In this document: positions 3,544 to 16,095 of the stretch, piece after piece
How positions within the stretch are numbered: the stretch's first letter is position 1
Layout: the number at the start of each line of letters is the position of its first letter
Source of the DNA: Nocardioides sp.
Lineage (GTDB): Bacteria > Actinomycetota > Actinomycetes > Propionibacteriales > Nocardioidaceae
Assembly: GCA_021166815.1 (NCBI GenBank)
Contig: JAJPEO010000058.1
Coordinates: 1 to 18,735 of the forward strand
DNA length: 18,735 nt
Direction: 5' to 3'
Notes under the pieces: model-generated
What the model saw: the letters and a program-made list of their open reading frames with translations, nothing else
Database searches by the model: none
Told to the model about the DNA's origin: nothing
Made by a program: the position numbers and the translations under genes

Positions 3544-3574
3544 GGGCCCTGAGTCGCCCAGCGACTCAGGACCC
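3544..3574. repeat. Dispersed palindrome, copy 1 (between ilvC and frnE)
   Basis: Perfect 10-base arms CCTGAGTCGC (3548-3557) and GCGACTCAGG (3561-3570) enclose loop CCA. After one C/A mismatch the flanks GGG and CCC extend the stem to 14 positions. It starts 20 bases past the ilvC stop and ends before frnE, so it could fold in the RNA as a hairpin after ilvBNC. No U-run follows on either side. Confidence 0.85.
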
Positions 3575-3593
3575 AGCACGCGCACTGACGGCC

Positions 3594-4619
3594 TCAGCGA
3601 GCCGCGGAGCCCTCGACGTAGTCGGAGTCCTGCTGCTTCCAGGAGAAGTGCGAACGCAGGAGCTTGCCGGTGGCCTCGATCGGGTGCGAGGCCTCCTTCT
3701 CGCGGAGCTCGAGGAACTCCTTGCCCCCGTTGTCCTGGTCGTCGATGAAGCGCTTGGCGAACGAGCCGTTCTGGATGTCGTCCAGGATCGCCTTCATGCT
3801 GGCCTTCACCTCGGGGGTGACCACGCGCGGGCCGGAGACGTAGTCGCCGTACTCCGCGGTGTCGGAGACCGACCAGCGCTGCTTGGCGATGCCGCCCTCC
3901 CACATCAGGTCGACGATGAGCTTGAGCTCGTGGAGCACCTCGAAGTAGGCGATCTCGGGCTGGTAGCCCGCCTCGGTGAGGGTCTCGAAGCCGGCCTGGA
4001 CCAGGTGCGAGACGCCACCACAGAGGACGGCCTGCTCACCGAACAGGTCGGTCTCGGTCTCCTCGGTGAAGGTGGTCTTGATGACGCCGGCGCGGGTGCC
4101 GCCGATGGCCTTCGCGTAGGACTTCGCGAGGTCCCAGGCAGAGCCGGAGGCGTCCTGCTCGACCGCGATGATGTCCGGGATGCCGCGGCCCGCGACGTAC
4201 TCGCGGCGCACGGTGTGGCCCGGGGCCTTCGGGGCGACGAGGATGACGTCGACGCCCTCGGGAGCCTGGATGTAGCCGAAGCGCACGTTGAAGCCGTGGC
4301 CGAACACGAGGGTGTCCCCCGCGGTCAGGTGCGGCTCGATGGACTCCTTGTAGAGGTGGCGCTGCACCTGGTCGGGAGCGAGGATGACGATGACGTCGGC
4401 CTCCTCGACGGCCTCCGCCGGCGTGAGCACGCGCAGGCCCTCGTCCTCGGCCTTCGCCCGGCTCTTGGAGCCCTCGGGCAGGCCGACTCGCACGTCCACG
4501 CCGGAGTCGCGCAGGTTGAGCGCGTGGGCGTGGCCCTGGCTGCCGTAGCCGATGACGGCGACGTTCTTGCCCTGGATCAGGGACAGGTCGGCGTCGTCGT
4601 CGTAGAACATCTCAGCCAC
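3594..4619 (-). CDS. ilvC: Ketol-acid reductoisomerase, class I, NADP-dependent
   Basis: IlvC isomerises and reduces acetolactate or acetohydroxybutyrate, the second common step of valine, leucine and isoleucine synthesis. The 341-residue length is that of the short class I enzyme. The nucleotide motif GYGSQG is at 24-29 and FGHGFN at 106-111. The metal-binding acids are Asp191 and Glu195 (TDLFGEQ), and Glu227 and Glu231 in EIAYFEVLHELKLI. GTG 4619 is preferred to ATG 4610: AAGGAG (complement of 4628-4633) lies 8 bases before the GTG but 17 before the ATG. It follows ilvN after 48 bases in the same operon and is followed by palindrome copy 1. Nothing in the sequence departs from the family. 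Confidence 0.98.
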   Translation of the reverse strand: MAEMFYDDDADLSLIQGKNVAVIGYGSQGHAHALNLRDSGVDVRVGLPEGSKSRAKAEDEGLRVLTPAEAVEEADVIVILAPDQVQRHLYKESIEPHLTAGDTLVFGHGFNVRFGYIQAPEGVDVILVAPKAPGHTVRREYVAGRGIPDIIAVEQDASGSAWDLAKSYAKAIGGTRAGVIKTTFTEETETDLFGEQAVLCGGVSHLVQAGFETLTEAGYQPEIAYFEVLHELKLIVDLMWEGGIAKQRWSVSDTAEYGDYVSGPRVVTPEVKASMKAILDDIQNGSFAKRFIDDQDNGGKEFLELREKEASHPIEATGKLLRSHFSWKQQDSDYVEGSAAR

Positions 4620-4667
4620 TTCGGGCTCTCCTTCTGGTTGGGGTTCGGGGGGTCTGTGGTTGCTGGG

Positions 4668-14074: not shown

Positions 14075-14080
14075 TAGGCT
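14075..14080 (+). promoter_or_regulatory. Candidate -10 box for a leaderless exporter mRNA
   Basis: TAGGCT is followed by six bases (GTGCCA) and then GTG 14087, the same geometry as upstream of ilvD. It supports GTG 14087 over the in-frame GTG at 14081. No clear -35 is present. Confidence 0.42.
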
Positions 14081-14086
14081 GTGCCA

Positions 14087-14950
14087 GTGACAGCAGGCCA
14101 CCATTTCGAGCGCTCGCCTCGGCTGGGGCCCGTCTGGTTCGTCGTGGTCAGCATCATCTCGGTGCAGCTGGGCGCCTCGGTGGCCAAGGGACTCTTCGGC
14201 GAGATCACGCCCACGGCGATGATGTGGCTGCGGCTGGCCACCAGCGCCGTGGTGCTCACCGCCCTCGCACGTCCGGCCCTGCGCGGCAGGACACGGACGG
14301 ACTGGCTGACCGTGGTCGCGTTCGGCGTCAGCCTGGGGCTCATGAACTGGGCGATCTACCAATCCTTCGCCCGGATCCCGCTCGGCGTCGCGGTCACCAT
14401 CGAGTTCATCGGTCCGCTCACCCTGGCCGTCGTCCTCTCCCGCCGTGTCCGCGACCTGGTCTGGGTCGGGCTGGCCGCGCTCGGCGTACTGCTGCTCGGC
14501 TTCGACCCCTCCGCGCTCGATCCCTGGGGCGTGGCGCTGGCGCTCCTCGCGGGCGCCGCATGGGCGACCTACATCCTCCTCAGCGTCCGCACGGGTCGGC
14601 AGTGGCCCGGACTCGACGGGCTGGCCGTGGCCAGCATCGTCGCGGCGGTCCTGTTCGCACCACCCGCGGTGCTCTCCGGCGGTACGACACTCCTCGACCC
14701 GCGGGTGCTCGTGCTCGGCGCCCTGGTCGGCCTGCTCAGCTCGGTGATCCCGTACAGCCTCGAGCTCGTGGCCCTGCGCTCGCTGCGCCCCGCCGTGTTC
14801 GGCGTGCTGATGAGCCTCGAGCCCGCGGCCGCCGCCCTGGCAGCCGCGCTCGTGCTTCAGGAGTTCCTCTCCCCCGTGCAGTGGCTCGCGGTCGCCTGCG
14901 TCGTCGCCGCGAGCGTGGGTTCCACCCGCGCGGGCAGAATCGCAGCATGA
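14087..14950 (+). CDS. EamA/RhtA-type exporter (DMT superfamily)
   Basis: The 287-residue protein is a ten-segment membrane protein made of two EamA repeats. RhtA-like signatures are visible: ISVQLGASVAKGLFGEITPTAMMWLRL near the start, PLGVAVTIEFIGPLTLAVVLSR in the middle, and LSSVIPYSLELVALRSLRPAVFGVLMSLEPAAAALAAALVL in the second half. RhtA of E. coli exports threonine and homoserine, so amino acid or metabolite efflux is a reasonable guess; the substrate is not proven. GTG 14087 is chosen because TAGGCT precedes it at leaderless spacing; GTG 14081 would add two residues. Its stop overlaps the next gene's ATG as ATGA, so the two are probably translated together. Confidence 0.88.
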   Translation: MTAGHHFERSPRLGPVWFVVVSIISVQLGASVAKGLFGEITPTAMMWLRLATSAVVLTALARPALRGRTRTDWLTVVAFGVSLGLMNWAIYQSFARIPLGVAVTIEFIGPLTLAVVLSRRVRDLVWVGLAALGVLLLGFDPSALDPWGVALALLAGAAWATYILLSVRTGRQWPGLDGLAVASIVAAVLFAPPAVLSGGTTLLDPRVLVLGALVGLLSSVIPYSLELVALRSLRPAVFGVLMSLEPAAAALAAALVLQEFLSPVQWLAVACVVAASVGSTRAGRIAA

Positions 14951-16095
14951 GTCACCAACGGGTCAGGACCAGACTGCTCCTCACCCCCGTGGCGGCGCTG
15001 GCGCTCCTGGGGATCACCGCGTGCAGTGACCAGGACGCCGAGCCGCCCGTCCCGCGCGTCACCCAGCCGACCGCGACCCAGCAGCAGCCGACACCTCCTG
15101 AGTCGCCCAGCGACTCAGGAACGAGTGGCCGCCAGCCACGCGTCAGCGCCACCATCGCCACCGGCCTGAGCGTGCCGTGGGGCCTGGCCTTCCTCCCTGA
15201 CGGCGACGCGGTCGTCACCGAGCGTGACGACCGCCGGGTGCTGAGGGTGACCCCGGGTGGCGAGGTCACCGAGCTCGGGACCATCGACGAGGCCTCCCCG
15301 CAGGGCGAGGCCGGCCTGCTGGGCGTGGCGGTGTCCCCGGACTTCCAGACCGACGGCCACCTCTTCTTCTACGTCACCAGCGCGGATGACAACCGCGTCC
15401 TGCGCGCCCGGCTGGACGACGACACGCTCGGCGAGCCCGAGGTGGTCCTCGACGGCATCCCGCAGGGGTTCATCCACGACGGCGGGCGCCTCGCGTTCGG
15501 TCCGGACGGGTTCCTCTACGCCTCCACCGGCGAGGTCGGGGATCCAGAGCTGGCCCAGGACCCCGACAGCCTCGGCGGCAAGATCCTGCGGATCACGCCC
15601 GACGGCAAGCCCGCCCCCGGCAACCCCGACCCGGACTCCCCCGTGTGGTCGTTGGGACACCGCAACGTGCAAGGCCTGGCGTGGGACGACCAAGGCCGCC
15701 TCTGGGCCTCGGAGTTCGGCGACTCCACCTGGGACGAGCTCAACCTGATCGAGCCGGGCGCCAACTACGGCTGGCCCCGCGTCGAGGGCGCCGGCGGCGG
15801 TGCCGACTACACCGATCCGCAGGCCGTCTGGCCGGTCGAGAACGCCTCCCCCAGTGGTCTCGCCTTCCACAAGGGCAACCTCTGGATGGCATCCCTGCGC
15901 GGCCAACGGCTCTGGCGCATCCCGGTCGACGGCAAGGGGGCCGGCGAGCCCCGGGCCTTCCTCGAGGGAGCCTACGGCCGGCTGCGCGGCGTCGCAGTCG
16001 CGCCGGACGGGACGGTGTGGGTGACCACGTCCAACCACGACGGACGAGGCAACCCGAGCGAGGACGACGACCGCATCCTCCAGGTCACCCCCTAG
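14947..16095 (+). CDS. PQQ-dependent sugar dehydrogenase-family lipoprotein
   Basis: The 382-residue protein begins with a basic start, a hydrophobic stretch (10-24) and a lipobox ITAC, so Cys26 should be lipidated and the protein held outside the membrane. A Thr/Pro/Gln-rich linker (about 30-62) follows, then the glucose/sorbosone dehydrogenase propeller: GEAGLLGVAVSPDF (120-133), IHDGGRLAFGPDGFLYASTGE (176-196, with the His177 expected as base), GGKILRITPDG (210-220), GHRNVQGLAWD (237-247) and TTSNHDGRGNP (360-370). Homologues oxidise aldose sugars with PQQ; the substrate is unknown and no PQQ biosynthesis gene is in view. The linker contains palindrome copy 5, which encodes ESPSDSG. The start overlaps the exporter stop (ATGA). 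The end overlaps the convergent ECF S gene by 11 bases. Confidence 0.9.
   Translation: MSHQRVRTRLLLTPVAALALLGITACSDQDAEPPVPRVTQPTATQQQPTPPESPSDSGTSGRQPRVSATIATGLSVPWGLAFLPDGDAVVTERDDRRVLRVTPGGEVTELGTIDEASPQGEAGLLGVAVSPDFQTDGHLFFYVTSADDNRVLRARLDDDTLGEPEVVLDGIPQGFIHDGGRLAFGPDGFLYASTGEVGDPELAQDPDSLGGKILRITPDGKPAPGNPDPDSPVWSLGHRNVQGLAWDDQGRLWASEFGDSTWDELNLIEPGANYGWPRVEGAGGGADYTDPQAVWPVENASPSGLAFHKGNLWMASLRGQRLWRIPVDGKGAGEPRAFLEGAYGRLRGVAVAPDGTVWVTTSNHDGRGNPSEDDDRILQVTP
15096..15120. repeat. Dispersed palindrome, copy 5 (inside the lipoprotein linker)
   Basis: Perfect 11-base arms TCCTGAGTCGC (15096-15106) and GCGACTCAGGA (15110-15120) enclose loop CCA, the same loop as copy 1. It encodes Pro-Glu-Ser-Pro-Ser-Asp-Ser-Gly at residues 51-58, between the lipobox and the propeller. 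A flexible linker is an easy place to accept an insertion. Confidence 0.85.

Follow-up and report, generated by a model that had tools for sequence, protein, structure and literature searches.

The subject of this analysis is a short palindrome dispersed over a window of 18,735 nucleotides from Nocardioides sp. (contig JAJPEO010000058.1, the whole stretch analysed), together with a gene of the same window (12092..12736, minus strand) that encodes a helix-turn-helix (HTH) protein of the XRE type, 214 residues long. The palindrome is probably the binding site of this protein, the proposed cognate binder, which would act as an autoregulated, genome-wide DNA-binding protein resembling EspR of Mycobacterium tuberculosis; the proposal is built on sequence comparison. 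The system is known in kind and new as a family, and among the open-licence PMC matches listed no description of the palindrome or of its HTH protein was found.

The palindrome consists of a core, TGAGTC-N7-GACTCA, within a looser 39-bp palindrome with the consensus C-G-CTGGnnn-YTGAGTC-KCYSRGM-GACTCAR-nnnCCAG-C-G, in which the outer arms CTGG/CCAG are separated from the core by variable triplets. The spacer was fixed at 7 bases across the family and is itself palindromic. The counts for consensus, covariation, reading frame, spacing and placement were obtained from stretches chosen around the best matches and from the ilv region, and for the consensus and covariation sets short-context sites were excluded and the merging of near-identical copies brought 178 down to 129. 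A variant in which TGAGTC and GACTCA are 9 bases apart was common to genomes G121 and G116 (L022 1501-1523 and L024 1501-1523).

All five palindromes that an earlier note on this DNA had located in the window were recovered by a covariance model, with E values from 5e-14 to 1e-4; the model was trained on 50 copies, including four of the window sites, with the site at 9685 outside the training set. No strand is assigned to these sites. The exact core with 8-base arms CTGAGTCG/CGACTCAG (CTGAGTCG-N5-CGACTCAG) was present at 3549, 9694, 12888 and 15098; at 9800 only the inner 12-base core TGAGTC-N7-GACTCA was kept and the neighbouring bases were changed. A relaxed form of the pattern gave four real matches in the window against none in 200 dinucleotide shuffles of it, which bears out the claim of a density above chance, and the unit proved nearer 39 bp than the 31-35 bases suggested.

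Repetition, conservation, co-occurrence and placement were all determined by computation on genome sequences, and related genomes are not independent in any of the counts. Exact cores were found 450 times in 36 of 147 Nocardioides genomes, compared with 6 matches of a reversed control pattern, so the genome-wide count, proposed earlier as a check, is not at chance level. Core numbers ranged from 3 to 55 in 29 genomes and from 1 to 2 in seven, with none in 111; the genome to which the window belongs (a 2.83-Mb draft made up of 400 contigs) contained 8, five of them on the window contig. The 39-base unit with outer arms, at no more than three mismatches, was detected in 22 of the 147 genomes (the control pattern gave no match), and the covariance model found the palindrome in 32, with 45 candidates scored per genome. 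The range of the family is limited to some members of the genus, a restriction that the earlier note had not recognised; nor had it recognised the nearly uniform reading frame of the in-gene copies or the HTH gene beside the copy at 12881. Two genomes, G012 and G022, had no exact core in 60 kb of the ilv-kynureninase-GSDH region (L219-L221, L245-L247), which carries cores in 14 of 16 compared genomes; they have 14 and 20 cores elsewhere.

Among 84,980 species genomes, the exact 18-base pattern was present in 24 DNA stretches. Twelve belonged to planctomycete-type records, where the flanks differ and often read CTACGTAG, and eight of these 12 came from a single genome; six lay in four Nocardioides genomes, and six were single matches in other groups. 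A strong homologue of the HTH protein was encoded in two of the 24 (alignment scores 498 and 494, the rest at most 80). Since only Nocardioides stretches showed such a homologue, matches outside the genus were set aside as unrelated or due to chance. In Planctomycetaceae AM_0621, the form CTGAGTCGC-N3-GCGACTCAG recurred in eight stretches (L049, L050, L053, L058, L060, L066, L070, L071), apparently as a separate palindromic repeat family with flanks of its own.

The occurrence of the palindrome closely followed that of the HTH gene. Homologues of the HTH protein were found in 30 of the 147 genomes, and all 29 genomes with at least three cores were among them (Fisher P 7e-30, not corrected for relatedness). 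The 30 HTH-positive genomes contained 442 cores and the 117 others eight. When sites were called by the covariance model, 29 genomes had both sites and an HTH homologue, and a single genome, G044, had the HTH gene only. Genomes with more HTH genes also had more sites (rho 0.65; the gene counts exclude four fragments in G141), a correlation that arises partly by construction, since the promoter sites of every HTH gene add to the total.

The position of the sites relative to the gene was equally regular. With the best HTH gene of each genome taken (n = 30; the remaining paralogues are only partly included), 29 of 30 had one to four cores 72-372 bp upstream of the start, and no other cores were present in the roughly 1.5 kb examined on each side of these genes. 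In the three genomes with full site lists (G012, G071, G088), upstream cores accompanied 7 of 7 HTH genes, and HTH genes with upstream sites occurred in more than one gene neighbourhood. The corresponding site of the window, 12879..12917 (core 12889-12907, covariance-model E 2.9e-12), lies upstream of the HTH gene and downstream of a BNR-repeat gene. The sole exception, G044, retains an HTH gene with the same ilvD neighbour as in the window (judged by eye), has no cores, and carries GKS in the recognition helix instead of the SQS kept in all 29 HTH genomes with upstream cores.

From these observations, it was inferred that the HTH protein and its paralogues most likely read the palindrome, with a dimer probably contacting the two TGAGTC half-sites, 13 bp apart. 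The one to four sites that precede the HTH gene would then serve autoregulation. Autoregulation through palindromic operators is familiar from HigA/HipB-type antitoxins and phage repressors.

The HTH protein reached the Pfam HTH_3 cut-off (E 7e-9, residues 33-81), which places it among XRE-type DNA-binding proteins. Its AlphaFold2 (AF2) model, with a mean pLDDT of 82, places the HTH helices at residues 27-78 and closes the C-terminal part with a long helix. The only entries listed by a PDB sequence search at E ≤ 0.1 were HigA and an MBF-like chain; with the whole protein as query, Foldseek found nothing at E ≤ 0.001, and the VIA-align rows covered only the HTH part. The protein shares the HTH fold, by PDB and profile matches, with XRE antitoxins of the HigA/HipB type and with phage repressors. 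It differs from the antitoxins in that the curated cut-offs for type II toxin-antitoxin families (HigA, HipB, MqsA) were not reached, the best NCBIfam score being 28.5 bits against a required 61.8, and Pfam named no toxin among the window genes scanned. The C-terminal part of the family contains invariant residues, PAH and DH motifs among them (residues 97-183 of the window protein); this part had no profile or fold match and is a possible ligand or metal site.

Between close genomes, the core changed far less than its surroundings. Substitutions per aligned base were 0.014 for cores in genes and 0.025 for intergenic cores, compared with 0.136 and 0.166 in the respective flanks, genome pairs being counted in both directions and hence not independent. 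Silent third positions were changed in 3 of 56 cases within the core, whereas in flanking codons 119 of 620 third positions were changed (P 0.006, pairs counted in one direction). The serine codon of the core, TCA, is rare in the window genes, where it encodes 5 of 239 serines. The core is held under constraint at the DNA level.

Sites inside genes were numerous and followed a common reading frame. In called genes, 46 of 118 unique cores were located, 45 of them in one frame that yields PESPSDS-like peptides; in the larger HTH-positive set, 66 of 68 in-gene sites, in 38 proteins, were in that frame, the exceptions being the window site at 9801 and one site in G075. The ten site-bearing proteins scanned comprised an Fe-S reductase, an amidohydrolase, a NifS-like aminotransferase, a pyridine nucleotide oxidoreductase, a biotin carboxylase, a GSDH protein, an APH-family protein, a protein kinase and two proteins with no family assignment, a mixture of functions that argues against a simple, classical regulon. 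In several species, large proteins (L073, L078, L079, L087, L142) have in-frame sites arrayed in tandem within a disordered C-terminal part; L073, the one of these that was scanned, belongs to the CCG/4Fe-4S reductase family.

Two sites of the window are located within the kynureninase gene (9068..10303, minus strand; Pfam KYNU_C and Aminotran_5): a weak one at 9685..9724 (core 9695-9713, E 1.1e-4), which reads ISESVRDSGA, and one at 9791..9829 (core 9801-9819, E 4.9e-9), which reads GVSLSATQRA. At the kynureninase loci of 29 other genomes, a core was present at neither place (0 of 29), so the earlier concern that the sites could be codons common to homologues does not apply. The homologues aligned without a gap at site 9695 in 29 of 29 cases and at site 9801 in 28 of 29, the exception being the distant protein of G001 (42% identity). 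Window residues differed from the majority at 14 of 18 positions within the sites and at 85 of 375 elsewhere (P 2e-6, G001 excluded). Because the homologues align without a change in length, the two sites replaced existing sequence and were not inserted.

A third in-gene site, at 15089..15127 (core 15099-15117, E 1.1e-9), is located in a GSDH-family lipoprotein gene (14947..16095, plus strand; Pfam GSDH E 1e-74). It is in-frame at 15098, reads PPESPSDSGTSG, and falls in the linker that follows the lipoprotein signal peptide, as judged by eye. Among 29 orthologue loci (L153-L181), the exact core was shared by the window and G075 only, and the linker is too variable for an insertion test.

Placement was evaluated for 192 unique sites from HTH genomes, of which 69 fell within genes, another 69 were upstream of an HTH gene and 54 occupied other intergenic positions; over a third were thus in called genes and the majority outside. 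These figures depend on a simple gene caller, and a few arrays scored as intergenic, in G125 and G071, correspond to arrays that are coding in relatives. Of 41 intergenic loci away from HTH promoters, three were removed because they lie upstream of divergent HTH genes (G005, G092, G129). In the remaining 38, 15 were between convergent genes, which make up 9% of background length (P 3e-7), and three between divergent genes, which make up 29% (P 0.002), the background being taken from the ilv regions only. Many intergenic sites were within about 50 bp of a stop codon, and some provide the TGA stop of a gene. In two cases one palindrome ends two convergent genes, with a TGA on each strand (L243 2090 in G112 and L012 1502 in G075).

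The intergenic example of the window, at 3540..3578 (core 3550-3568, E 5.5e-14), lies between ilvC and a DSBA-family gene (2776-3489, minus strand; Pfam DSBA E 2e-45). The ilvC gene for ketol-acid reductoisomerase (3594..4619, minus strand; Pfam KARI_N/KARI_C on 3594-4616) adjoins this site with its 3' end, its stop being at 3594. Sites also accumulated near the HTH gene, 9 of 39 non-promoter loci being within 12 kb of one compared with 0.52 expected (G012, G071, G088).

Neighbouring intergenic sites were spaced in clusters near 34, 45, 57, 67, 79 and 88 bp, with further values at 24, 93 and 114. The Rayleigh test for helical phasing at 10.5 bp gave P ~2e-6 on 42 pairs and 0.007 on 22 distinct spacings. 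The intergenic spacings are consistent with proteins bound on one face of the helix. Together with the weakness of the within-clade covariation described below, the helix-face spacing argues for a site in double-stranded DNA used by cooperating dimers.

If the HTH protein does bind at these places, the remaining sites, from a few to some fifty per genome, which occupy the ends of genes, disordered linkers within coding sequence and the surroundings of HTH genes, would be distal sites at which bound dimers could bridge or loop DNA without blocking promoters. The protein would then act as a nucleoid-associated or long-range DNA-bridging protein of the EspR kind; an architectural role of the protein and its distal sites is proposed tentatively. 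In PMC3315491, EspR is described as a nucleoid-associated HTH protein with a short TTTGC-like motif and 165 loci by ChIP-seq. The palindrome family is similar in having sites within and between genes, clustered, and upstream of the protein's own gene, a likeness of site positions and not of occupancy. It differs in that the Nocardioides motif is a long palindrome with 3-55 exact cores per genome.

A comparison can also be made with the sites of SlmA and of MatP (matS) in Escherichia coli. According to PMC3116907, these are palindromic, number 23 to 50 per genome, are partly coding and form no regulon, SlmA sites being absent from Ter and MatP sites confined to it. The Nocardioides sites are likewise sequence-specific palindromes, present in coding regions too, with no regulon. 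In contrast to these macrodomain systems, they are neither restricted to the terminus nor excluded from it, and SlmA is TetR-like whereas the HTH protein is of the XRE type.

Several results weigh against an EspR-like binding site. Intergenic cores are sometimes lost, gaps covering 23 of 300 core positions and 162 of 1586 flank positions. The phasing leans on the strong 57-bp mode and forms a broad peak at 10.75-11.5 bp, not at 10.5 bp; in-gene spacings are tied to multiples of three, with no phasing among their distinct values. Against within-clade shuffles, the arms still covary at position 9 (71 vs 52.7, none of 2000 shuffles as high) and weakly at positions 10, 11, 14 and 17 (P 0.006 to 0.04), and such covariation is not needed by a plain double-stranded DNA site. 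As to the link with the HTH gene, the co-occurrence may reflect few evolutionary events because related genomes were counted, the G044 contrast rests on one genome, and G111, G132 and G140 have one or two weak covariance-model sites with no HTH homologue. Several of the loci clustered near the HTH gene are orthologous and hence not independent. No bias along the origin-terminus (ori/ter) axis was detected (Kolmogorov-Smirnov (KS) P 0.10; 42 loci in G012, G088 and G071), the loci spanning 0.01 to 0.97 of the ori-ter distance.

A more far-reaching version of the proposal is possible, though it is put forward with reserve: that the XRE-type family and its dozens of sites, arising in place, form a two-part genome-organising system that bridges or insulates gene ends in a sequence-specific manner. 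Sites would occupy the ends of genes, their stop codons and the linkers of proteins, would be densest around the HTH gene, and would bend coding sequence to their needs, enzyme residues being given up and the rare TCA serine codon kept. Such a system would be unlike promoter regulons and also unlike domain systems defined by ori and ter.

The accumulation of sites near HTH genes could also be explained by a selfish or decoy pair, in which the HTH protein promotes local gain of sites through repair bias or gene conversion, or else is titrated by the sites, with no benefit to the cell. The existence of several HTH paralogues with their own sites, the mixed host genes and the in-place replacement inside an enzyme such as kynureninase would fit this explanation. 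It was nevertheless considered unlikely, as the core is conserved at orthologous places and the profile and domain scans recognised no enzyme domain in the HTH protein.

The earlier note had offered three options for the palindrome: a REP-like mobile element, a protein-binding site and a structural element. The second accords with the HTH co-occurrence, the upstream position, the fixed spacer, the conservation of the core and the spacing; the other two did not hold up. REPs favour gene ends, and their copies are mainly outside genes. The dispersal of the palindrome, its enrichment at gene ends and its tandem copies would suit a REP- or MITE-like element inserted genome-wide by a transposase, and the resemblance to REP/RAYT systems extends to short dispersed palindromes and to one associated gene with copies beside it. 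The partner here is an XRE HTH protein, however, and many copies are coding. A search for the RAYT domain Y1_Tnp (PF01797) was negative in all 147 genomes at E ≤ 0.001, the positive control being detected in 5 of 14 named genomes, E. coli included.

In-frame copies in genes also recall the Rickettsia palindromic elements (RPEs), which PMC10969869 describes as insertions of about 150 bp, in-frame in many genes. The Nocardioides unit, of about 39 bp, is likewise in-frame in many genes but showed no insertion where this was testable, the kynureninase sites having replaced residues with no change in length. The intergenic ilvC-DSBA site is also present in G121, G116, G007 (with one core base changed) and G030, and it is missing in G083, the one clean case of presence and absence. 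There 57 bases are absent, which reads as a probable deletion because G030 shares its right flank with G121, and thus looks like loss. With the core under selection at orthologous places as well, a mobile origin was regarded as very unlikely.

Little probability was likewise given to an RNA hairpin serving as a terminator, a 3'-UTR stabiliser or a site for an RNA-binding protein. The palindrome can fold, arm pairing and covariation exceeded plain shuffles, and the closeness of many intergenic sites to stop codons would suit such a role. Most of the arm covariation, however, was removed by shuffling within clades, and the pair beside the core showed no pairing preference (66 vs 70.0 in within-clade shuffles). 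A spacer constant at 7 bases and itself palindromic, and the many sites inside genes, also argue against a hairpin. Rfam had no match in the window, and a terminator scan of 12700-13050, the only place scanned, called no stem followed by a T-run; on these two results a riboswitch or terminator was considered unlikely.

Equally doubtful is the explanation that the sites are those of a different protein found in the clade, with the HTH gene merely one of its targets, even though many genes may share the distribution of the HTH-positive genomes: sites lie upstream of 29 of 30 HTH genes in more than one neighbourhood, and the recognition helix is altered in the one HTH genome without sites. A marker of chromosome domains was rejected for lack of an ori/ter bias.

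With recognition by the XRE-type protein as the probable explanation, an unexplained dispersed palindrome has been linked to a candidate protein from sequence alone, and the predictions are directly testable. If the proposal is true, some members of the genus Nocardioides have a DNA-binding network, specific and moderately sparse, that overrides codon choice and even enzyme sequence. It would offer a clean model of how a bridging protein's sites are chosen so as to avoid promoters, and of why they gather near the gene of their reader. The ESPSDS-type linkers of site-bearing proteins may accordingly be DNA sites and not protein motifs.

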